From positions 62,001 to 126,000 of the forward strand of contig NZ_SLXH01000005.1 in assembly GCF_004341365.1 (NCBI RefSeq): a stretch of 64,000 nt of DNA, written 5' to 3'. The translations under genes and the position numbers were made by a program. This DNA comes from Simplicispira metamorpha. Its GTDB lineage: Bacteria; Pseudomonadota; Gammaproteobacteria; Burkholderiales; Burkholderiaceae_C. Of the stretch, positions 19,393 to 59,692 are shown in pieces. The first letter of the stretch is position 1. Every line of letters begins with the position of its first letter. Below the pieces are notes generated by a model. It was not told where the DNA came from. It saw only the letters and a list, made by a program, of their open reading frames with translations, and searched no databases.

Positions 19393-20052
19393 TCACGCCG
19401 TGGGCCGCAGCCAGACGATGCAGCGCTCGGCGTCCAGGCCCGGCACCTGCAACGGTTCCACGTGAAACACCTGCACCGCTGCGGGCAGCGCAGCGATCTC
19501 GTCCGCCGGGTGCTTGCCCTTCATGGCCAGCCAGACGGCGCCGTTGCCCAGCGCCGAGTGCGACCAGCGGGTGAAGTCGGCCAGCGCGGCAAACGCGCGG
19601 CAACTGACCACATCGAACGGCCCGGCCAAAGACTCGACCCGGGCGTGGATGCCGTGCAGATTCGGCAGGCGCAGCGTGACGGCCGCTTGCTGGATGAACG
19701 CGGCTTTTTTGGCCACGGTATCGACACAGCTCACGTCCAGCTGCGGGCAGCAAATGGCAAACACCACGCCGGGCAGGCCACCGCCCGAGCCCACATCCAG
19801 CAGGCGCTGCGCGGGCGCACCGGCTTGCGCGGCCTGCGCCAGATGGCGGCGCAGCGGCCCTACCGCTGCCAGGCTGTCGAGCAGGTGGTGGGTGAGCATC
19901 TCGGCGGGGTCGCGCACCGCCGTCAGGTTATAGACCTTGTTCCACTTTTGCAGCAGCGCCATGAAGTCCAGCAGCTGCGTGATTTGCGCGTCGCTCAAGT
20001 CCAGCGCCAGGGCCTGGGCGCCGCTGCGCAGGGTTGCTTCCATGGTGCTCAT
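19393..20052 (-). CDS. rsmG: 16S rRNA (guanine-527-N7)-methyltransferase
   Basis: Methylates G527 of 16S rRNA; loss gives low-level streptomycin resistance. The 219-residue protein has [20 protein letters not shown] near residue 37, the SAM loop [17 protein letters not shown] near residue 88 and [17 protein letters not shown] near residue 155. Its ATG overlaps the mnmG stop by four bases, the usual gidA-gidB coupling. A parS-like site lies inside the 3' part of the gene. Confidence 0.95.
19454..19469. promoter_or_regulatory. parS-like ParB-binding site 1
   Basis: GGTTCCACGTGAAACA differs from the classical consensus TGTTCCACGTGAAACA only at the first base. It lies inside rsmG, 2-3 kb from parB. 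Inferred ParB-binding site. Confidence 0.85.
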
Positions 20053-22097
20053 GCCGCCTCTCCGTTCTGGGCGGCAGCGCCCGGTGCCGGTGTGGCAAAA
20101 CCCTTGAAGCCGCCTTTCTTCAGGTGCACCATCAGCAGCGAGATGGCCGCCGGGGTAATGCCCGTGATGCGCGATGCCAGCCCCAGCGTTTCAGGCCGGT
20201 GGCGGGTCAGCACCTGGCGCGCCTCAATGCTCAGTGCCGTGACCTGCATATAGTCCAGGTCGGGTGGCAAGCGCAGTTTTTCGTAATGGGCAGCGCGCCC
20301 TACTTCGTCGCGCTGGCGGTCGATGTAACCCGCGTACTTGGCGGCAATCTCTACCTGCTCCACCACCGGCTCGCTCAGGGCGCCCAGCGTTTCACGTGAA
20401 ACATCGCTGCTGGCGTACTTGCCGCCGTCCATGTCCATCAGCGCGCCATAGGCCACATCGGGGCGGCGCAGCAGCTCGAACAGGTTGTATTCGTGCTCAA
20501 TGCGCTTGCCCAGCACGCGCGCCGATTCTTCAGCAGGCAGGTTGCGCGGGTTCACCCAGGTGGATTTGAGGCGCTCGGTTTCACGTGAAACCGCATCGCG
20601 CTTGCGGCTGAAAGACTCCCAGCGGGCGTTGTCGATCAGCCCCAGCTGGCGGCCCACTTCGGTCAGGCGCATGTCGGCGTTGTCCTCGCGCAGTTGCAGG
20701 CGGAACTCGGCGCGGCTGGTAAACATGCGGTAGGGCTCGGTCACGCCCTTGGTGATCAGGTCGTCCACCAGCACGCCCAGGTAGGCCTGGTCACGGCCCG
20801 GCAACCAGCGCTCGCCCGTGTAGCTGATGGCGCCTGCGGCACTGGCTGCGGCATTGCCGCCGCCCAAAGCGCGCACTTGCAGCGCCGCATTCAGGCCCGC
20901 AAACAGGCCCTGGGCCGCAGCCTCTTCGTAGCCGGTGGTGCCGTTGATCTGGCCCGCAAAAAACAGGCCCTGAATCTGCCGCGTCTCAAAATTGCTTTGC
21001 AGCGAGCGCGGGTCAAAGTAGTCGTACTCGATGGCGTAGCCGGGGCGCAGGATGTGTGCGTGCTCCAGCCCCGGCATGCTGCGCACCAGGGCCAGCTGAA
21101 TATCAAAGGGCAAGCTGGTGCTGATGCCGTTGGGGTAGAACTCGTGGGTGGTCAGGCCCTCGGGCTCCAGAAAAATCTGGTGGCTGTCCTTGTCGGCAAA
21201 GCGGTTGATTTTGTCTTCCACGCTGGGGCAATAGCGCGGGCCCACGCCCTCGATCTTGCCGGTGAACATGGGGCTGCGATCAAAGCCGCTGCGGATGATG
21301 TCGTGCGTGCGCGTGTTGGTGTGCGTAATCCAGCAGGGCATCTGGCGCGGGTGCATGGCTGCGCCCCCGTAAGCGTGTGCCATGAAGCTGAACACCGGCA
21401 CCGGGCTGTCGGCATTCACACCGCCGGGCATGCCGTCGCCAGGCTGCTCGGTGCATTGGGAAAAATCAATCGTGCGGCCATCGATGCGCGGCGGGGTGCC
21501 GGTTTTCAGGCGCGCCTGGGGCAGCTGCAGCTCTTTCAGCCGCGCGGACAACGACACCGCTGGCGGATCGCCTGCGCGGCCTGCGGCGTAGTGGTTCAGG
21601 CCGACGTGGATTTTTCCGTCCAGAAACGTCCCCGCCGTCAGCACCACCGTGCGGCCGCGAAAACGCACGCCCACCTGCGTGACGGCGCCCACCACGCGGT
21701 CGCCCTCCACCATCAAGTCGTCCACGGCCTGCTGGAAGATGAGCAGGTTGGGCTGGTTCTCCAGCACGCGGCGGATGGCGGCCTTGTACAAGATGCGGTC
21801 GGCCTGCGCCCGCGTGGCGCGCACCGCCGGGCCTTTGCTGCTGTTGAGGATACGGAACTGGATGCCGCTCTCGTCCGTGGCCAGCGCCATGGCGCCGCCC
21901 AGGGCATCCACCTCTTTGACCAAATGGCCCTTGCCGATGCCGCCAATGCTGGGGTTGCAGCTCATCTGCCCCAGCGTCTCGATGTTGTGCGTCAGCAGCA
22001 GCGTCTGGCAGCCCATGCGCGCAGCGGCCAGCGCGGCCTCGGTGCCCGCGTGGCCACCGCCAACGACGATCACATCAAATTCCTGGGGGTACAACAT
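20049..22097 (-). CDS. mnmG: tRNA uridine-34 5-carboxymethylaminomethyl modification enzyme, FAD subunit
   Basis: With MnmE, installs the cmnm5 group on wobble uridine of certain tRNAs. The 682-residue protein starts with the FAD-binding [20 protein letters not shown], has [20 protein letters not shown] near residue 45, [12 protein letters not shown] near residue 155, and [20 protein letters not shown] near residue 370. The length is slightly above the usual 620-630, with an extended C-terminus ([20 protein letters not shown]). It is first in the mnmG-rsmG-lysE-parA-parB series and contains two parS-like sites. Confidence 0.96.
20388..20403. promoter_or_regulatory. parS-like site 2
   Basis: CGTTTCACGTGAAACA: perfect inner palindrome GTTTCACGTGAAAC, within mnmG. 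Inferred ParB-binding site. Confidence 0.85.
20577..20592. promoter_or_regulatory. parS-like site 3
   Basis: GGTTTCACGTGAAACC: a fully palindromic 16-mer within mnmG, 189 bp from site 2. Inferred ParB-binding site. Confidence 0.85.
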
Positions 22098-22303
22098 GGA
22101 ACAACTCCGGGGGCAGGCACAACGGCCTGGTAGTCAACAAAGGGCCGCGCAAGGCAGGCCAGGGGGATTGGCGCCTGCACCGATTGCGCAGCCACGCAGG
22201 CAGCCAACTGGGCGCAGAAAAGGGGCAATTTTCCCACTTTGCGCACGGACTGTCGCTGGCAGTGCTGCCAAGGGCGTGGTCTTTACCCGGCGCGCTGCGG
22301 CGG

Positions 22304-22319
22304 TGTTTCACGTGGAACA
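22304..22319. promoter_or_regulatory. parS site 4, exact consensus
   Basis: TGTTTCACGTGGAACA is the exact complement of the classical parS TGTTCCACGTGAAACA. It lies in the 259-bp intergenic space between the divergent mnmG and FMN reductase genes, which must also hold both promoters. Confidence 0.9.
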
Positions 22320-23437: not shown

Positions 23438-24751
23438 ATGCACAGCTTCCAAGCGCAATCCAACGACGTTCTCTCTTTTTTCTCCGGGGCCGGCGGCTTT
23501 TCTTATGGATTTGCACTTTCTGGGTTGAAGCCCGTTTGTGGTGCAGAGGTTGACAAGGATGCGTGCGAAACTTACGAGCGCAACGTCGGCAGTGACTGCC
23601 ACAACGTTGACCTTTCGTCCATTGACCCGGGTTATTTTCGAAGAATCTCCGGCGGGCGTGCTCCATTTGCCGTCATCGGTGGCCCCCCGTGTCAAGGGTT
23701 TAGTACGGCCGGGTCGCGCGACTCAAGCGACCCACGTAATCGGCTGATATTCAACTATCTGAACATCGTTGACCACCTACGTCCGCGTTGGTTCATCTTT
23801 GAGAATGTTGAAGGTCTGCTTACGTCCGGACACGGCGTTGCGGTTTTTTCTCTTGTGAAGGAATTTATTCGGATTGGGTATTCGGTGCGAGTACAGAAAG
23901 TCAACCTTGCCGCCTATGGCGTTCCTCAAACGCGGAAGCGCGTCTTGATAATAGGAAATAGCTTGGGGGTTGATTTTGAATTTCCTGAGGAAACGCATTC
24001 GTATGCGTCCGGGAAGTCAAAGAAACATAGCGGCAAGCCTTTTGCGCCTACGCTCGACGAGGCGCTGGCCGGGTTGCCAATGGCAGGAAAATCTCGGCAG
24101 GAGAAAATTAACTATTCATCAGATATTCCGGCAAACGAATTCGACCAGGAAATGAGGCAGGGTAATAATGGTGGCACTTTGACCGAGCATTTTCAAAATG
24201 TCGATATCAAGGACGCTGAAATGTATTCGCTCCTTCGGGCTGGTCAGACGATGAAGGACTTACCTCAAGAACATTGGCATGAGAGCTTCAAGCGTCGGGC
24301 CTTCAGACGTGTGCAAGACGGGACACCTACCGAGAAACGGGGCGGCGCCCCGTCGGGGGTAAAGCGCTTGACTGGTGACCTGCAGAGCCTGACTATCACC
24401 GGAGCAGCGTCCCGAGAATTTATTCATCCGCACGAGAATAGGCCATTGACTATTCGCGAGTGCGCAAGAATTCAGACTTTCCCGGACGCATATTTATTTT
24501 CTGGTAACGCTGCAAGCGTCATTCAGCAGATTGGAAATGCTGTTCCGCCATTGGCGGCATCTGTTTTTGCTAGGCACCTTGAGGCGCTCGACGGGAAATT
24601 TGGTTCAGGGGTCGAGTTGCCGCGTAAGGGTGCTGCGAGACTTCTTGGATACCTGCTTACGGAAGCATCCGGGATGAGTGAGGCACTCCAGAAAACTGAG
24701 TCGCTTCTGCGGGGTATCCAACAACAACAACTTGAATTTGACGAACTATGA
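23438..24751 (+). CDS. DNA (cytosine-5-)-methyltransferase of restriction-modification pair 1
   Basis: A 437-residue C5 methyltransferase with all core motifs: [35 protein letters not shown] (catalytic Cys near residue 82), [41 protein letters not shown] and [13 protein letters not shown]. The target-recognition region lies between about residues 220 and 320. Codon use is clearly more AT-rich than in the flanking genes, which points to horizontal transfer. It overlaps the next gene by four bases (ATGA), the expected coupling of methyltransferase and endonuclease. Confidence 0.92.
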
Positions 24752-47609: not shown

Positions 47610-48215
47610 TCAGGTTTTTACCGTCGACCACTCTGCTGCTTGTTTGGGGAATTTCTTGATGAGCCATTGCAAAACTGCCAACTGGTCTTGCGATGTACCC
47701 CGGCGCACCTGAATGAGCAATTTTTGCAAGTCTGGCCGGGTGAGTGTGGCATTGGATGCCCCCTCATTGCACACAGAGCAGATGGCACGAAGATTGGCTG
47801 GATCATCCGTCCCACCCATGCTTTTATCGATGACATGTCCCAGATGCAATCTGGTTTTTCGGGTGACATCGTAGGGATGGGCCTCACCTGCGACAGCACC
47901 GCACATTTGGCAGGTGAACCCATTTCGATCCAGTACAAATGCCCGGGTTTCCTTGGAAATGGCGCGCTCAAACGCAGGCTGAGGTTTTGGCGTTTCCAGA
48001 AGATATTGCCCTGGCTTCAACTCGCTCCTGTCATTGTGCGTGAGTATTTGATAACCCTCTTCAGTACGCAATTCCCGAACACGGCGAGCCCACTCTGATT
48101 GATTTTCAGCGACAACGCGCAACTCATCTGAGTCCATTACTCTGCCAATATTTTCGAGAAAATGGGCTCTTAATTTACCGCGAGCCCCACCTCGCGCTTT
48201 TTTCTCTGTTGCCAT
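47610..48215 (-). CDS. HNH endonuclease, probable restriction partner of pair 2
   Basis: A 201-residue protein with a C-terminal HNH domain: RNGFTCQMCGAVAG (first Cys pair), LHLGHVIDKSMGGTDDPANL (His and Asn) and RAICSVCNEGASN (second Cys pair), from about residue 95 to 155. The N-terminal half is basic and may recognise DNA. Low GC compared with the chromosome. It starts 2 bp after a cytosine methyltransferase gene on the same strand, so it is most likely the endonuclease of a type II system. The ATG at 48215 was chosen over a TTG. Confidence 0.85.
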   Translation of the reverse strand: MATEKKARGGARGKLRAHFLENIGRVMDSDELRVVAENQSEWARRVRELRTEEGYQILTHNDRSELKPGQYLLETPKPQPAFERAISKETRAFVLDRNGFTCQMCGAVAGEAHPYDVTRKTRLHLGHVIDKSMGGTDDPANLRAICSVCNEGASNATLTRPDLQKLLIQVRRGTSQDQLAVLQWLIKKFPKQAAEWSTVKT

Positions 48216-48217
48216 GG

Positions 48218-49177
48218 TCAAGCCCGTTTGAGTCGTTTTTTTGCTTCTGCATTCAATGCAGCATGAATTTTTTGGCCAACAGCGCAGGCTACTGGAGGCG
48301 GAAAAGCATTGCCAATTTGACGGTATGCAGATGTTTTTTTTCCACTGAATTGCCAGCTATCAGGAAACCCCTGAATACGGGCAGCCATTCTGACGGTGAG
48401 GCGGGGCATGCCCACAAATTCTTTTGTAGGTGGCGCATCAGCGATGCCCATGCCATCTACACCAATAGATGCCCATGCCTTTTTGGCTCTAGTTGGCCCA
48501 AGATCAGGGCCACCATGCTTTTTGCTCCCACCTACCAAAGTGGGGGCAATATCACACGCACGATCACGCCATTGCTCGGCACCATGCCAGCCGTCTGCGT
48601 GCATGAGGTCAAACAGGCAATCACCGACTGTCAAAGGTGTTTTTTCATGGGGTGTCGGCCAATTGAAAAAATCAGTGGCCCCTTTTTTAAGCGCAACAAA
48701 TACCACTCTTGGCCTGAGTTGTGAAACGCCGAAATCACTGGCATTTAAAAGACGCCATTCGGCAAAATACCCCATCTTCTTAAGATCAGCCACCAGTTTG
48801 GTTCTGTATTCATCAAAAATACTGTCCAATATTCCTCTCACATTCTCAAACATGACTGCCTGAGGCCTGCATTCAGCCACTAAACGAAGTGCCTCAGGAA
48901 ATAAATCCCTTTCGTCCTCATTACCAAGCTGCTTGCCAGCACGAGAAAATGGAGGACATGGAACTCCTCCAGCAAGCAAATCAATTCCTCGCCATTTTTC
49001 AGCAGAGTAGTGGCGCAAGTCTCCTTCGACAACATTCCAATGAGGGCGATTCACCCGCAGGGTTTGACAAGCTGGGGCTTCAATTTCGACAAGGCTGAGA
49101 TGGTCAAATCCAGCCAACTCAAGCCCTAAGGCCTGACCTCCGGCGCCAGCGCAAATTTCTATAGAACTGAGTGACAT
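48218..49177 (-). CDS. DNA (cytosine-5-)-methyltransferase of restriction-modification pair 2
   Basis: A 319-residue C5 methyltransferase. Motif I is IEICAGAGGQALGLELAG, motif IV LLAGGVPCPPFSRAGKQLG (Cys in P-C-P-P), motif VI MFENVRGILDS, motif VIII FGVSQLRPRVVFVAL, motif IX LTVRMAARIQGFP and motif X RQIGNAFPPPVA. It is not closely related to the methyltransferase at 23438. AT-rich codon use marks it as acquired. The ATG at 49177 gives the standard start; a TTG eight codons upstream is possible. Confidence 0.92.
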   Translation of the reverse strand: MSLSSIEICAGAGGQALGLELAGFDHLSLVEIEAPACQTLRVNRPHWNVVEGDLRHYSAEKWRGIDLLAGGVPCPPFSRAGKQLGNEDERDLFPEALRLVAECRPQAVMFENVRGILDSIFDEYRTKLVADLKKMGYFAEWRLLNASDFGVSQLRPRVVFVALKKGATDFFNWPTPHEKTPLTVGDCLFDLMHADGWHGAEQWRDRACDIAPTLVGGSKKHGGPDLGPTRAKKAWASIGVDGMGIADAPPTKEFVGMPRLTVRMAARIQGFPDSWQFSGKKTSAYRQIGNAFPPPVACAVGQKIHAALNAEAKKRLKRA

Positions 49178-49225
49178 GGGATTGGTTTTTTGAGGGTTCA
49201 ATGAATGAGGGCGCGCAGCCCGCGC

Positions 49226-51608: not shown

Positions 51609-52193
51609 ATGGCCGCCACCTTGTTCAGCCCCCTGCCCGCCCCCCGCGCCCTGGCGTGCAGCATCGTCCTGGCGCTGGCCGCGCTGCCTGCCCTGGCGCA
51701 AAGCACCGCGCCAGCACAGGCCACGCGCAGCCTGTACCTGCAAGTGGCACGCGCCAGCGAGCACACCCAAACCTACACCGTGGGGCTGACCCAGCCCTGG
51801 GCCACCTGGCAGAGCACGCTGTGGGGTGCGCCGCTGCGCGGGCACTGGGATCTGCACCTGAGCCAGTGGGCCAGCGACCACCCCGGGGGCAGGCAGCACA
51901 CCACGGTGCTGGGCATCACGCCCACGCTGCGCCTGTGGCCGGGCGGCCTGGGCGCAGCCTGGTTTGTCGAAGGCGGCATAGGTGCCGTGCTGGCCAACCG
52001 GCGCTACAGCACGCCCAGCAAAACCTTCAGCACCCGTTTCAACTTTGCCTCGCACCTGGGCGTGGGCGTGCGCCTGGGGGCGCAGCAGCAGCACGAATGG
52101 CTGCTGCGCGTGCAGCATGTCTCCAACGCGGGCCTGAAAAAACCCAACCCGGGCGAGAACTTCCTGCAACTGCGCTACGCACTGCATTTCTGA
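51609..52193 (+). CDS. pagL: Lipid A 3-O-deacylase PagL
   Basis: Outer-membrane beta-barrel of 194 residues that removes an acyl chain from lipid A. A signal peptide ends near LPALAQ. FVEGGIGAVLANRRYS near residue 120, FNFASHLGVGVRLG near residue 145 and LRVQHVSNAGLKKPNPGENF near residue 165 are PagL motifs; the His-Val-Ser holds the catalytic His and Ser, and the final aromatic Phe fits an outer-membrane protein. Preceded by AAGAGGG. Lies after the Spy-like gene in the same direction. Confidence 0.92.
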   Translation: MAATLFSPLPAPRALACSIVLALAALPALAQSTAPAQATRSLYLQVARASEHTQTYTVGLTQPWATWQSTLWGAPLRGHWDLHLSQWASDHPGGRQHTTVLGITPTLRLWPGGLGAAWFVEGGIGAVLANRRYSTPSKTFSTRFNFASHLGVGVRLGAQQQHEWLLRVQHVSNAGLKKPNPGENFLQLRYALHF

Positions 52194-53854: not shown

Positions 53855-54084
53855 GGTGGCGCAATTATAGGGATGGCCTTCCAGGCCCCGTGCCCGGGCG
53901 CGTTTTGGCACGGCCCTGCTGCACTTTTCCCTCTTTCCCATTTGTTCTTGGCACGGCCCGCGCCGCAGTGCAGCCCGGCCTGGACGGCTCCCCTCCCCCC
54001 ACATACATACCTTGCTCCCGCGCAACCAGCGGGCTCCCGGCGGCACAACGTGCCCGCCGAAGTTTGTCCAGGACAAAACCAGCC

Positions 54085-54283
54085 TGTGGATAACCCTGTG
54101 GTCAAAAACAGGACAACCAGGCAGTTATCCACAGAAAAATGCCACGGCACGCAGTTATCCCCGTTGCGCAGCGCCAGCAACAGGGCTTGGCACACAGGGT
54201 TTGGCGCGCGCTAACTGTTTGGCAGCATTCAGGAAAGAATAGTTATCCACAGGATAGGCCAATCCTTACTATTACTACTATTG
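54085..54283 (+). repeat. Origin module 1: boxes and DnaA-trio-like tract
   Basis: TTATCCACAGAAAAATG at 54125, then TTATCCCCGTTGCG at +30, TTATCCACA at +118, trio tract at +141; GGATAACCCTG precedes at -37. The tract continues into AT-rich DNA (GAATTAGATTGG). Confidence 0.85.
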
Positions 54284-54440
54284 AATTAGATTGGTTTAGC
54301 AGAACAAGTCTGATTTTTTCCGGCGTGCGATGTTCCCCGTTCAACTTCGCGCGGCGCGGGGGGGACCTGACAAGAGTTATCCACAGGCCTTTCAGAAAAA
54401 TGGGCTTTGCGGCGCAAAAAATCGGTTTTTTGCTCTTTTT

Positions 54441-54498
54441 TTGAGAGCTATTAGCGCTTTACTGGCGGGGTTTTCAGGCTGTTGACCTGTTTTTTTTC
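54441..54498 (+). repeat. Dispersed intergenic repeat, copy 10, between the two origin modules
   Basis: TTGAGAGCTATTAGCGCTTT then TTTTCAGGCTGTTGACCTGT and a T-run. It resembles the copy at the parA end. Confidence 0.6.
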
Positions 54499-54517
54499 GG
54501 CGCCCGGCGCGCACAAG

Positions 54518-54712
54518 GACAACCCTGGGGAAAAAACCCGCACAACCCAAGACTTATCCACAGAAAAATGACCCGGCCCCAAGTTGTCCCCGTTGCGGTG
54601 ACAGCAGGCGCGGGGGGCAGCGCACAGACATGTCCGAAACACAAGTCCTTGTTTGACAAAGGAAAAGTGAAGTTATCCACAGAAAAGGCAAAACCTTACT
54701 ACTACCACTATG
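54518..54712 (+). repeat. Origin module 2: boxes and DnaA-trio-like tract
   Basis: TTATCCACAGAAAAATG at 54554, TTGTCCCCGTTGCG at +30, TTATCCACA at +119, trio tract at +142; GGACAACCCTG precedes at -36. Offset to module 1 is 429-430 bp. The tract leads into ATTCATAGAAGTTATAGATA. Confidence 0.85.
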
Positions 54713-54808
54713 TATTCATAGAAGTTATAGATAACAACATCCCATCGCGCCCATGCCAGACACCAGCGCAGCGCCCGCGCGCGTTGCGAGCTTGCTTTTT
54801 GCTATTAC

Positions 54809-54862
54809 TTTGATAGCTACTTGCGCTGATTACGCAAGGCTTAGAGCCTGATTTGGCTTGTA
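54809..54862 (+). repeat. Dispersed intergenic repeat, copy 11
   Basis: TTTGATAGCTACTTGCGCTG, then GCAAGGCTTAGAGCCTGATT and TGGCTTG, at the right side of the origin region. Confidence 0.65.
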
Positions 54863-54982
54863 TTCACGCACGGCATGCGCACACGGCCTGGGTGTGCAGT
54901 GGCTGTGGACAACAGGCGTGCGCAGGCCGCACAGGCGGGCGCTGCACGGCAAACGGGTCGGGGTGGAGGGGGTGGGGCCTGC

Positions 54983-57900
54983 TCAGCGCACAGGACGGCG
55001 CAGCAGGGGCTCCAGCAGGTGCTGTGGCAGGGGTTTGCTGAACAGGTAGCCCTGGAAGGCGGGGCAGCCGGCGTGCAGCAGCGCATCGCGCTGTTCGGTG
55101 GTTTCCACGCCTTCGGCGATCACGGTCAGGCCCAGGCTGCGACTCAGGCCGATGATGGTGTTGACGATGGCGGCGTCATTGGGGTCGGTGAGCAGGTCGC
55201 GCACAAAGCTCTGGTCGATCTTGAGCTGGTGCAGCGGCATGAGCTTGAGGTAGCTCAGCGAGGAGTAGCCGGTGCCAAAGTCGTCCAGCGAAAAGCCCAC
55301 GCCCAGCGCGCCCAGCGCGGTCATGGTGGCAATGGTGGTTTCCATGTCTTCCACCAGCAGGCTTTCGGTCAGCTCCAGCTTGAGCAGGTGCGCCGGGGCG
55401 CCGGTGATTTGCAGCACATGGGCCACGTCATCGACGAAGCCAGCGTGGCGGAACTGGCGCGAGCTGACGTTGACGGCCATGCTCAGGCCCTGCAGCGCGG
55501 GGTCGCTGCGCCACTGTGCCAGCACCTGGCAGGCGGTGTGCAGCACCCAGCGGCCCAGGGTCAGCACCAGCCCGGTTTCTTCGGCCAGGGGGATGAAATG
55601 GACGGGCGTGACCAGGCCGCGCTCGGGGTGCAGCCAGCGCACCAGGGCTTCCACCCCGATGTACTGGCCCAGGCGATCGACCTGGGGCTGGTAGTACAGC
55701 AGGAACTGGTCTTGCGCCAGCGCCTGGCGCAGGTCGGACTCCAGGGCCGCGCGCGCCGTGACCACGGCCTGCATGTGCGGGTCAAAAAACCGCAGGGTGT
55801 TGCGCCCTGCCGTCTTGGCCTGGTACATGGCCAGATCGGCCTGGCGCAGCAAGTCGCCCACGCTGGTGGTGCCTTCGCAGCAGAACGGGGCAATGCCGAT
55901 GCTGGGGGTGCTTCGGTACTGGTAGCCCGCCAGCGCATAGGGCGCGGCCAGGGTGGTGAGGATTTTCTCGCCCACGCTGCGTGCGGTCAGGGCCAGCGCC
56001 TCGGGCTCGGGGCTGAGCCCTTCGAGCATCACCACGAACTCGTCGCCGCCCAGGCGTGCCACGGTGTCGGCGCCGCGCACACAGGTGTTCAGGCGCTGGG
56101 CCACCTGTTGCAGCAGCAAGTCACCCTTGTCGTGGCCCAGCGTGTCGTTGAGGGTTTTGAAGTTGTCCAGATCAATGAACAGCAGCGCCCCGCCTTCGTG
56201 GTTGCGCTGCGCGGTGGCCAGCGCCTGGTGCATGCGCTCCATCAGCAGCGTGCGGTTGGGCAGCCCGGTGAGGGAGTCAAAAAAGGCCAGGCGCTGGATT
56301 TCGCGCTCGGTGGCCTTGCGCTGGCGGATGTCGGTGTGGATGGCCAGGATGGACTCGGGCTGGCCGTCTTCGCTGCGCACCAGTGTCCAGCGCCCTTCCA
56401 GGTCGATGGCCTGGCCATCGCGGTGGTGCTGCACCAGTTCGCCCGTCCATTCGCCCTGGGTCAGCACGGTGTCGGTGGCGCGCTGAAAATGCGTCACCTG
56501 CTGGCGCAGGAGTTCGGGCATGGACTGGCCCAGCGCCTGGACGCGCGCCCAGCCGTACAGGCGCTCGGCACCCTGGTTCCAGAAGGTGATGCGGTGATCG
56601 AGGTCGCGCACCACGATGGCGTCCTGCGCCTTGTCCAGCAGTGAGGCCTGGTGGCGGATGCGGGCGTCCGAGAGCTGGCGGTCGATTTCGGTGGAGGCGC
56701 GGGCGGCAAAAATTTGCAGCGTGGACATGACGAACTCGGGGCTCTGCAAGGGCTGGCGAAACAGCACAAACACCATGCCCAGTGGCTGGCCCTGGGTGTC
56801 GCTGAGCTGCAAGCCGGCATAGGCCTGTGCGTTCAGCATTTTGACCAGGGCGGCCTGCGGGTAGCGCTGCACTGCGCTGTGTCGCACCACATGCTGGCGC
56901 TGGGTGAGCAGCACCAGGCTGGGCGTGCCCCCCAGGCTGTATTCGTCGTTGGGCAGCAGGTGCCCGTCTTGCACCACGGCCAGGGTGGTGATGCGCGGCA
57001 CCTGGCCGCTTTTGCGCGGCAGCAGGCGGGCCACACAGCCGAGCTGGGCGCCCAGCACCTCGGCCATGTTGCGCGCCAGCTGGATAAAAAACTCGGTGCC
57101 CGTGGTGGCCGAGACGGCAGCGGCCACTTTGAGCACCGACGCTTGCAGGCGCTGCTGTTCTTTGCGCGCGCGCAGGCTGGTGATGCCAAAAGCCAGGTCG
57201 TTGGCCAGTCGTTGCAGCAGCCGCGCCTCTTCGGGGCTGATGTGCAGCACCTCGGGGGCATACAGGTACAGCAGCCCGAAGGTGCGCTCGTCCTGGCGCA
57301 GCGGCAGGCTGATGACGCCATGAAAACCGTGCGCCAGCATGCGATCGCGCAGGTCAGCATAGGCGGGCTCGCTGCGCACATCCTGCACGATCACGGGCTG
57401 GCCGGTGCGCACCGTGGCACCCGAGGGGCCTTGGCCGCGCGGGTCGGTGGCCGACCACGACAGGTTCAGGGTTTCCAGGTAGCCATCGTTGGCGCCGGCG
57501 TGGGCCACGGGCTCGATGGTTTTTTGCGCATCGTCGTGGGCAAAGCCCACCCAGCCCAGGCGGTAGCCGCCAATGTCCACGGCAATGCGGCACACGTCTT
57601 GCAGCAGGGTTTGTTCGGAGGTGGCGCGCACCATGGCCTCGTTGCAGGCGCCCAGCAGTTGCTGGGCGCGGCCCATGCGGGCCAGTTCGCGCTGGGCGCG
57701 CAGGCGCTCGGTGATATCGGTGGCCATGATCTGGCGCGCTGGCTGGCCATTGAAGGTGGTGCCGCGCGACCAGATCTCGACCTCCAGCACGGCGCCGCTT
57801 TGGTGCAGGTGGCGGTGCTGCAAGGCGTCGCAGCCGCCATCGAGGGGGATGGCCATGACCTCGGCGCGCAGCTGCGCGCGCTCTTGCGGCAGCCACAAAT

Positions 57901-59479
57901 CGGTCATGGACATGGCCAGCAGCTGCGCTTCGGTGTAGCCGTACAGCGCCACCGTGGCCTGGTTGACGGCCAGGATGCGCAGGCTGTCGTCAAAGGCGTA
58001 CACCCACATGGGTTGGGGGTGGGCATCAAACAGCAGCCGGTATTGCTGCTCGGAAGCGCCCAGGCGCGCGGCCACCTGGCGCAGGTGCAGCAAAGCGCCC
58101 AGGGATTCCGAGAGGATTTGCAAATGCGCGGCATGCCGTGCGCTGAACGCACCGGGCTGGGCGCTGGTGGCTTGCAGGGCACCGGCCACGCGGGCGTTGA
58201 TGCGCAGCGGCGTGGCCAGCACAGCGCGCACCTGCGGCGGGTAGGCGGGCAGGCTGCCATCCAGTTCCTGCGGGGGGGCCTGGGTGTCGTTGCACTGCAC
58301 CGTCTGGCCCGCTTGCAGTGCGCTCCACAGCGGGCTGTGCGCCAGGAGCGGCACAGACGGCGTGCTGCCTTCTTCGCACAGCCCCGGCCCGGCGCAGGCA
58401 CGGGCCACGCCATTGAGTTCGACCACAGCGTCCGTGGCGCCGGTGATGCGCAGCACCGCCTGCGCCACCAGCTCCAGCAGCGCGCTTTGGCGCAGCTCCA
58501 GCGAGGACATTTTTTGCTGCACCTGCACCAGCTCGGCCTGCACCTGCGCCTCGTCCAGCGCGGCCAGGTGGGCGTGTTTGTCGGCGCTGATGTCTTTCAT
58601 GCCGCCCACCATGCGCAGTGCCCGGCCCTGGGCATCGCGCAGGACAAAGCCCCGGTCGAGCACCCAGATGCTGCGGCCATCGTCGCGCAGCATGCGGTAC
58701 TCGGCCTGCCAGGCGTTGTGGTCGTGGTCGGCGGAGGGGGCGCCGGGCTGGTCTTGGGTGGCTGCGCGCAGTGCCTGCACCACGCGCTGGCGGTCAGCCG
58801 GGTGTACGCGCTGGGCCCAGGCTTCGTTGTTGGGCATGGGCTGGTCGGGGGCCATGCCCCACAGCGCCCTGAACGAGCCGCTCCACCAGATGTTGCCGCT
58901 GCGCACGTCCCAGTCCCACACCGTATCGGCGGTGGCGTCAGCCACCAGGTGAAAGCGCTCTTCGCTCAGGCGCAGCGCCTCGTGCTGGCGGCGCAGTTGC
59001 AGTTGCGCCATGGCCTGGCTGGCCAGGCTTTGCAGGGCGCTGCGCTGGGCGACGTCCAGGGTGCGTGGCTGGGTGTCCATCACCACCAGCGTGCCCAGGG
59101 CAAAACCGTCGGGGGTGACCAGCGGCGCGCAGGCATAAAAACGGATGTGCGGTGGCCCCAGCACCAGCGGGTTGTCTTTGAAGAGCGGGTGCTGGCGCGC
59201 ATCGGGCACCTCGACCACCTCGCGCCGGCCATCGAGCCAGTGCGTGCAAAAGGCCACGGCGCGGTCGGTCTGGGGCATGGCCACGCCCACTGCCGCCTTG
59301 AACCACTGGCGCCGGGCATCGACGAAGTTGACCAGCGCCATCGGCACGGCGCACACCTGCGCAGCCAGACGGGCCAGCTGGTCAAAGGCCTCTTCGGGCG
59401 CGGTGTCCATGATGGCGTGCGACTGCAGCACAGCCAGGCGCTGGGCTTCGGCGTTACCGGGCTGCACGGGTGCGGTCAT
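54983..59479 (-). CDS. Multi-sensor GGDEF-EAL cyclic-di-GMP enzyme (PAS/GAF)
   Basis: A 1498-residue cytoplasmic sensor. In order: GAF (about 15-155, HAIMDTAPEEAFDQLARLAA), PAS (165-290, ERFHLVADATADTVWDWDVR), GAF-like (325-480), PAS (490-600, YRLLFDAHPQPMWVYAFDDS), two GAF domains (615-930), PAS (945-1060, ITFWNQGAERLYGWARV), GGDEF (about 1075-1240) and EAL (about 1250-1495). RLGGDEFVVML is intact with an RxxD (RGAD) five residues before it, the product-inhibition site; GVEALVRWLHPERG and SLDDFGTGYSSLSYLKLM show an intact EAL site. It can in principle make and break c-di-GMP. The ATG at 59479 fits the GAF start. Large antisense frames here are shadows. Confidence 0.92.
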   Translation of the reverse strand: MTAPVQPGNAEAQRLAVLQSHAIMDTAPEEAFDQLARLAAQVCAVPMALVNFVDARRQWFKAAVGVAMPQTDRAVAFCTHWLDGRREVVEVPDARQHPLFKDNPLVLGPPHIRFYACAPLVTPDGFALGTLVVMDTQPRTLDVAQRSALQSLASQAMAQLQLRRQHEALRLSEERFHLVADATADTVWDWDVRSGNIWWSGSFRALWGMAPDQPMPNNEAWAQRVHPADRQRVVQALRAATQDQPGAPSADHDHNAWQAEYRMLRDDGRSIWVLDRGFVLRDAQGRALRMVGGMKDISADKHAHLAALDEAQVQAELVQVQQKMSSLELRQSALLELVAQAVLRITGATDAVVELNGVARACAGPGLCEEGSTPSVPLLAHSPLWSALQAGQTVQCNDTQAPPQELDGSLPAYPPQVRAVLATPLRINARVAGALQATSAQPGAFSARHAAHLQILSESLGALLHLRQVAARLGASEQQYRLLFDAHPQPMWVYAFDDSLRILAVNQATVALYGYTEAQLLAMSMTDLWLPQERAQLRAEVMAIPLDGGCDALQHRHLHQSGAVLEVEIWSRGTTFNGQPARQIMATDITERLRAQRELARMGRAQQLLGACNEAMVRATSEQTLLQDVCRIAVDIGGYRLGWVGFAHDDAQKTIEPVAHAGANDGYLETLNLSWSATDPRGQGPSGATVRTGQPVIVQDVRSEPAYADLRDRMLAHGFHGVISLPLRQDERTFGLLYLYAPEVLHISPEEARLLQRLANDLAFGITSLRARKEQQRLQASVLKVAAAVSATTGTEFFIQLARNMAEVLGAQLGCVARLLPRKSGQVPRITTLAVVQDGHLLPNDEYSLGGTPSLVLLTQRQHVVRHSAVQRYPQAALVKMLNAQAYAGLQLSDTQGQPLGMVFVLFRQPLQSPEFVMSTLQIFAARASTEIDRQLSDARIRHQASLLDKAQDAIVVRDLDHRITFWNQGAERLYGWARVQALGQSMPELLRQQVTHFQRATDTVLTQGEWTGELVQHHRDGQAIDLEGRWTLVRSEDGQPESILAIHTDIRQRKATEREIQRLAFFDSLTGLPNRTLLMERMHQALATAQRNHEGGALLFIDLDNFKTLNDTLGHDKGDLLLQQVAQRLNTCVRGADTVARLGGDEFVVMLEGLSPEPEALALTARSVGEKILTTLAAPYALAGYQYRSTPSIGIAPFCCEGTTSVGDLLRQADLAMYQAKTAGRNTLRFFDPHMQAVVTARAALESDLRQALAQDQFLLYYQPQVDRLGQYIGVEALVRWLHPERGLVTPVHFIPLAEETGLVLTLGRWVLHTACQVLAQWRSDPALQGLSMAVNVSSRQFRHAGFVDDVAHVLQITGAPAHLLKLELTESLLVEDMETTIATMTALGALGVGFSLDDFGTGYSSLSYLKLMPLHQLKIDQSFVRDLLTDPNDAAIVNTIIGLSRSLGLTVIAEGVETTEQRDALLHAGCPAFQGYLFSKPLPQHLLEPLLRRPVR

Positions 59480-59692
59480 GGGCCTGCTCTGTGCCACAGC
59501 GGACAGGCGCTGATTCGGTAGGAAAGAAACCAGAACGCTTGCATGGATCCATCGCTGGGGTCGGTTGAAAAAAGAACCACCGACGCAGCACCAAGGCAAT
59601 GGTGCCTACGCCGTGGGCGTTTTCAGGGGGTATTTATCCTACACCGCAGGTTGTGGCGGCAAGCCGTGATTACATCAATTCCGTGACACTAT

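Follow-up and report, generated by a model that had tools for sequence, protein, structure and literature searches.

The window analysed here is a stretch of 64,000 nucleotides from Simplicispira metamorpha, corresponding to bases 62,001-126,000 of a 162,963-base contig (C5) in a 3.78-Mb draft genome of 68 contigs. Within it, the region 54,060-54,920 is flanked on the left by pagL (lipid A 3-O-deacylase; 51609..52193, plus strand) and on the right by a gene for a PAS/GAF-GGDEF-EAL protein (54983..59599, minus strand, ORF extent as listed), both of which are recurrent neighbours of the putative origin site. The region contains two direct-repeat modules of ~170 bp, module 1 at 54122-54292 and module 2 at 54551-54722, in which the DnaA box TTATCCACA occurs on the plus strand at 54125, 54243, 54554, and 54673. 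Module 1 is composed, all on the plus strand, of box 1 (54125..54133), a weak box 2 with the sequence TTATCCCCG at +30 from box 1 (54155..54163), a weak site ending in CACA at −55 from box 3, i.e., at the place of R5M in E. coli (54188..54196), an IHF-like site, TAACTGTTTGGCA, that matches 7 of 9 consensus positions 31 bp 5' of box 3 (54212..54224), box 3 itself at the place of E. coli R1 (54243..54251), and a DnaA-trio tract, TTA CTA TTA CTA CTA, with five unbroken trios and an AT-rich start (54266..54282). Module 2 follows the same plan on the same strand, with box 1 at 54554..54562, box 2 (TTGTCCCCG) at +30 (54584..54592), a weak site ending in CACA at −55 from box 3 (54618..54626), an IHF-like site, CAAGTCCTTGTTT, that matches 8 of 9 positions 31 bp 5' of box 3 (54642..54654), box 3 at 54673..54681, and a tract, TTA CTA CTA CCA CTA, with three trios, one broken, and one more (54696..54712). 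The places of box 2 in module 1 and of both IHF-like sites are conserved, and both tracts were read directly from the sequence. Outside the modules, an inverted perfect copy of TTATCCACA lies 40 bp 5' of box 1 of module 1 (54085..54093, minus strand), an extra perfect DnaA box lies in the linker (54377..54385, plus strand), and an inverted box with one mismatch, TTGTCCACA, marks the right edge of the region (54904..54912, minus strand).

An earlier note had described two tandem box-and-tract modules at these positions. Upon re-reading the sequence, all of its coordinates and offsets for boxes and tracts were correct in both modules, as were the 14 bp between the third box and the tract and the three repeated flanking words, including GGAYAACCCTG. 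Its description of the modules as "matched" holds for the boxes, the spacing, and the tracts, but is slightly too strong, as the inverted upstream box occurs only at module 1 and the fourth triplet of module 2 is CCA. Additions to that note are the boxes at 54085, 54377, and 54904, the IHF-like sites and R5M-like core, a third copy, differences between the ends of the two modules, and the wide distribution of the module; its interpretation is as a whole supported by the results below.

The two modules are identical at 114 of 175 positions, and their local alignment score of 71 lies far above the values obtained from 1000 dinucleotide shuffles (16.2 ± 2.3, maximum 27), so the resemblance is not the random similarity that the note had raised as an objection. 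Across the broader halves of the region that it had proposed to align, 54060-54500 and 54500-54920, 255 of 457 positions are identical. DnaA boxes are likewise clustered beyond chance: the window includes 12 matches with ≤1 mismatch for 3.4 expected, and 6 of the 16 perfect boxes in the whole draft genome are packed into ~600 bp at this locus. A 171-position profile detected three modules in the draft genome at E ≤ 0.01 (4e-31 to 1e-28); these E-values are not independent since all three modules are among the 23 sequences from which the profile was built, but the count itself is still informative. We also observed a short interspersed repeat, of the GATAGCTA..GCGC type, that is scattered along the contig, with occurrences in the linker near 54443 and to the right of module 2 near 54809, and that is found beside the third copy as well (L004, near 9181).

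Alignment of 23 modules from the genus revealed a rigid frame in which, counted from box 3, the positions are −118/−119 for box 1, −89 for box 2, −55 for a 9-mer that ends in CACA, and −31 for CAAGTnnTTGAT; downstream of box 3 come ~14 bases, the trio tract, and AT-rich DNA. The trio-like tract is retained in all 23, upstream and downstream copies alike. The distance between boxes 1 and 3 was 118 or 119 bp in 127 of 136 modules found with the profile. The element at −31 is the reverse complement of the IHF consensus. To avoid circularity, we also searched with a pattern blind to IHF, composed of the boxes and CTACTA only, which yielded at least 118 loci; this pattern allowed 115-121 bp from box 1 to box 3. 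Among the 105 Betaproteobacterial stretches in the matches listed, this distance was 118 or 119 bp in 98, and the IHF consensus was matched at ≥7 of 9 positions at −31 in 79, compared to 63 of 9555 trials at other offsets. Among the matches listed, the same IHF threshold was reached by 5 of 18 control stretches titled outside Betaproteobacteria, namely a Pantoea record, a Chitinophaga record, two stretches from one record titled only Proteobacteria, and one Christensenellaceae bin; the Pantoea- and Chitinophaga-titled stretches also match the module profile strongly.

The same geometry, with an IHF site at a fixed place before R1, is found in the E. coli core. In E. coli MG1655, the 9-mer at R1−55, the place of R5M, is TCATTCACA, and an IHF-like site at R1−31 matches 7 of 9 positions, tied by score with two other oriC places (7 of 9 each). 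The E. coli IHF sequence printed in the available text of PMC4285127 corresponds, once reverse-complemented, to the bases at R1−31, which singles out that place among the tied sites. The BUS rule, as given in the portion of PMC8287927 available to us, calls for three or more trios no farther than 16 bp from a DnaA box, and both modules conform to it, module 1 with five trios and module 2 with three before the broken one. Judged on its sequence, the module is an R5M-IHF-R1 spacing of the E. coli type joined to a DnaA-trio tract of the Bacillus type.

We next evaluated the distribution of the module in relatives. In the genus, 25 of 26 genomes include a module at a profile threshold of E ≤ 0.01, 17 with two or more matches and 8 with one; the genome for which this search of 26 returned no match is 67% complete. 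Since four of the eight single-copy genomes are at least 97% complete, one copy suffices elsewhere. In the family, matches were obtained in 197 of 200 genomes, with the profile being built from the genus, own copies included, and with some of the single family hits being weak (E up to 0.002). Two or more matches, counted by eye, were found in 69 of the 200 genomes, our own included, and when the other 68 were searched again, 67 kept at least two hits of ≥135 bp, in five cases on different contigs only. Two copies within 8 kb were detected for instance in Paracidovorax wautersii, Acidovorax sp. Leaf160, Delftia acidovorans, and Comamonas denitrificans. Spacing between copies in the family ranges from 266 bp to tens of kb: measured start to start, the 65 neighbouring same-contig pairs include 21 at <1 kb, 27 at 1-5 kb, 11 at 5-15 kb, 3 at 15-50 kb, and 3 at >50 kb (two at 98-99 kb, and one pair, in G148, that would be short if the contig is circular). 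These neighbouring pairs, which are not independent cases because of shared ancestry, are direct repeats in 60 of 65 instances. Across the order Burkholderiales, 51 of 150 genomes were matched, and the matches outside the family were mostly weak or partial.

The position of the copies is also recurrent. The typical gene order, from which some genes are missing in some genomes, is site X, rdgC, an LTXXQ gene, pagL, site Y, an EAL gene, an NlpC/P60 gene, and an exonuclease (RNase T family) gene, and the copies are laid out on it in several ways: at both X and Y in some genomes, at X with two at Y (G028, G147), as two at Y (G000, G005, G013, G208), or at X alone (G014). The region is thus present beside the same genes in relatives, and the earlier note's proviso that its absence from close relatives would speak against an origin does not apply. 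In S. metamorpha, the place of X (window 47610-49201) is taken by a low-GC stretch beside rdgC with a cytosine methyltransferase gene and an HNH gene (its match to an IscB model is below cut-off). Neither gene was found in the loci of the 17 relatives searched, and this island may have replaced the X copy. A second cytosine methyltransferase gene is located at window 23438-24751, likewise in a low-GC stretch (about 0.53-0.54).

For X/Y genomes with copies 3-9 kb apart, the DNA separating the copies shares its skew sign with the X-side arm in all 11 genomes, a comparison that is confounded by gene content and that leaves out the split genomes G087, G066, and G032 with their different neighbours. 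This suggests that X is inactive or minor at split X/Y sites. In G239 and G029, the 9 kb that separate the first two modules have almost no skew (0.001 and −0.002, respectively). We considered these values as proof of dual firing, since mixed use would produce them, but rejected them as such because the switch of X/Y genomes is not at X. A different arrangement is seen in G182, with two modules in inverted orientation between dnaA and dnaN.

Modules 1 and 2 are not equally equipped. We examined 47 copies for an inverted box (≤1 mismatch, within 60 bp 5'). All 13 upstream tandem copies have one, always at a distance of 40-42 bp, as do all 10 copies at site X, all four single copies, and 7 of the 8 lone Y copies. 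By contrast, it precedes only 3 of the 11 downstream tandem copies, and none is found before the third copy of S. metamorpha. The word GGAYAACCCTG is part of this inverted-box element in module 1, and its occurrence in module 2 looks like a decayed form of the same element. The tracts differ as well, with five uninterrupted trios in module 1 versus three, a CCA, and one more in module 2. Module 1 is probably the main opening site, since it is the better equipped of the two, having an additional inverted box and an unbroken set of five trios. The anatomy of module 2, with a broken trio and without the inverted box, would also suit a helper role.

Region 54,060-54,920 is most likely the chromosome origin. 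In addition to the box cluster and its conservation in relatives, it is located at a GC-skew switch. Cumulative GC skew was calculated for 12 regions, each 80-300 kb long, and the distance from its minimum to the nearest module centre was measured: the minimum fell within 1.2 kb of a module in six of the 12, namely our own contig (1146 bp), the closed genome G003 (295 bp), G208 (136 bp), G147 (425 bp), G029 (265 bp), and G239 (858 bp). It fell farther away in the other six (G108, 5.4 kb; G183, 9.4 kb; G028, 34 kb; G022, 55 kb; G014, 58 kb; G013, 61 kb), so skew is only a rough guide, and its resolution is too coarse for sites 430 bp apart. The lack of a skew switch, which the earlier note would have counted against an origin, is not observed either here or at the homologous modules of G003. 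Four parS-like sites (≤2 mismatches) are found around mnmG at window 19454-22319, 32-35 kb to the left of the modules; beside mnmG are rsmG and a parA-like gene (parA models matched below cut-off). In G003 and G208, parS-like clusters are likewise found, at ~24-30 kb from the modules. The gene dnaA is 20 kb away in our genome, 54 kb in G003, 149 kb in G005, and 35 kb in G013.

A third module, in inverted orientation, is located on the same contig outside the window (C5:154,912-155,079, minus strand), 38.2 kb from module 2. It holds box 1, TTATCCCCG, an IHF-like site matching 7 of 9 positions, a degenerate box 3 (TTATCCCCA), and five trios, and its nearest relative is module 2 of the same genome (78% in one comparison, 76% in another). 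A role as second active origin was considered and rejected: skew dips near 154 kb, but the matching segment of G013 has local skew of the same sign, and the tandem pair of G013 makes up all the modules found on the contig of that segment, so the dip is no evidence of firing. Similarly, an inversion between the third copy and the main origin was rejected based on synteny with G003 and G013, according to which the site at 116 kb is conserved and only the dnaA cluster was turned. The rpmH/dnaA/dnaN block (C5:130184-141525) is reversed relative to both of these genomes. Just 5' of dnaA, a single inverted perfect DnaA box (C5:136082-136090) perhaps serves autoregulation.

With regard to mechanism, we lean towards one oriC with two genuine, selected modules that would both be opening sites. 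DnaA on the outer boxes 1 and 2 would be folded by an IHF bend onto box 3, and DnaA would then extend along the trio strand and open the AT-rich end. Each module would be complete for this DnaA/IHF route, with module 1 probably acting as the main site and module 2 as a second, weaker one; IHF binding, unwinding at either module, and this division of labour are predicted from motif content and spacing. Because they are 430 bp apart, the modules are considered to belong to one origin, and forks from either would be equivalent for the genome. The nearest rival, which is less probable but still a serious contender, is that only one module opens and that the other is a DnaA/IHF regulatory partner, i.e., a titration site or enhancer, a switch of DnaA nucleotide state similar to datA or DARS, or a helper similar to oriC1 of B. 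subtilis. A regulatory second copy would fit the weaker anatomy of module 2, in which the inverted box is missing and the trio is broken, and would be consistent with the degenerate box 3 of the third copy and with the skew switch lying away from X at all 11 split X/Y sites. In E. coli, datA and DARS2 act with IHF according to the available text of PMC10950094, PMC4245941, and PMC13036160. However, all 23 aligned modules retain a trio-like tract, for which no use in a titration site is known, and titration needs no direct orientation, yet nearly all neighbouring pairs, non-independent as they are, are direct repeats.

By contrast with both of these functional readings, the second module could be a functionless relic of a recent tandem duplication, an option that the earlier note had left standing and that we now consider improbable. 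Copy number does vary in relatives, down to one in 8 of 26 genus genomes, and in the subclade of S. metamorpha the copies YA and YB form one clade (89/88), as expected from recent duplication or gene conversion. Yet over the 36 pairs formed by nine genus genomes, mean identity was 58% for module 1 and 57% for module 2, compared to 38% for the linker and 39% for the flank, the latter (of fixed length, compared by mean only) being the fairer control since length differences lower the linker score. Each of the two modules surpassed the linker in identity in every one of the 36 pairs, which makes a bare relic unlikely, and the spacing of boxes, IHF-like site, and trios is intact in both. A tree of 54 copies also groups them by site across species, with 13 label changes versus 32.8 when labels were shuffled and 0 of 200 shuffles as low, although this tree is weak (172 columns, with a star on 16 of its 51 internal branches and a bootstrap that had not stabilised) and near-copies alone cluster labels. 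We rejected the use of this tree to date the duplication, as it supports retention by site and provides no date. Finally, the region might be a DnaA-box cluster of some other role, with the real origin lying either at dnaA or, near 155 kb of the contig, at the third copy. This is very unlikely in our view: the distance of 20 kb to dnaA, the one perfect box before that gene, the second skew dip near the third copy, and the six of 12 regions whose skew minimum is >5 kb from the nearest module would be in line with it, but the minimum lies at modules in the closed genome G003 and five others, and G013 has the same local skew beyond dnaA, where no module was found, so that the second dip needs no third copy.

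Each module shares with the BUS of B. subtilis, H. pylori, and others a high-affinity box, a 14-bp spacer, trios of the 3'-GAT-5' type, and an AT-rich end, as far as described in the available part of PMC8287927; unlike in that account, in the available part of which doubled units are absent, the origin proposed here has two full copies, each with an IHF-like site before it. With the left half of E. coli oriC (R5M, IHF site, R1, DUE), the modules share an IHF site at −31 and an R5M-like 9-mer at −55 from R1 or box 3, in the same orientation toward the unwinding side. They differ from it by a clear trio tract, where E. coli has weak trios and 13-mers, by the positions of the outer boxes, −89 and −119, at which E. 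coli is arranged otherwise, and by the doubling of the whole unit. A 2026 review (PMC13220808) suggests, in its available text, that E. coli may be able to dispense with trios owing to the IHF bend; here, IHF-like site and trios are kept together. Bipartite origins such as those of B. subtilis and H. pylori also have two close DnaA-box clusters per chromosome, and in some of our relatives genes lie between the copies as well. According to the available text of PMC4285127, however, the DUE of bipartite origins is in one of the two subregions and the spacer is usually dnaA, while here a trio and AT-rich tract is present in both modules and dnaA lies outside the interval that separates them. DoriC also includes putative double origins, with more than one origin-like cluster per chromosome; the table in PMC4403523 (2015), in the part available, includes four of these, in Acidaminococcus, Dehalobacter, Ralstonia pickettii 12D, and Ochrobactrum, and no Comamonadaceae. 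As presented there, these four rest on box counts, neighbouring genes, and disparity curves rather than on repetition of an unwinding module. In our literature search, none of the titles among the matches listed concerned a doubling of such modules. To our knowledge, datA and DARS2, the E. coli DnaA-IHF regulatory loci, contain no trio tract. What they share with the modules, in the available parts of their descriptions, is the combination of DnaA and IHF at one locus.

The new element would thus be two unwinding units in one origin, known split origins having one as far as the available descriptions go. The fixed IHF-box-trio geometry would unite the opening modes of E. coli (IHF bend) and B. 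subtilis (trio) in one conserved unit. More broadly, we tentatively propose for a whole bacterial family (f1, which includes the Comamonadaceae), as an idea that is itself rather doubtful, that chromosome replication begins at between one and three unwinding modules of ~170-210 bp that are portable and self-contained, can be doubled in place or moved kilobases past genes, keep mostly one orientation, and are each able to open DNA. If true, this would represent a natural bacterial chromosome with more than one initiation site, in which the origin can shift by losing one copy. An origin with two units, together with relatives in which two or three are spread over up to tens of kilobases, provides a natural series for asking whether multiple opening sites can exist and how origins move. 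Separately, two perfect DnaA boxes 358 bp apart, with a common longer context (CCCACAAAGTTATCCACAG), were observed upstream of priA on another contig of the draft genome (C18; L008, 9958-10324), where they possibly reflect DnaA control of replication restart.
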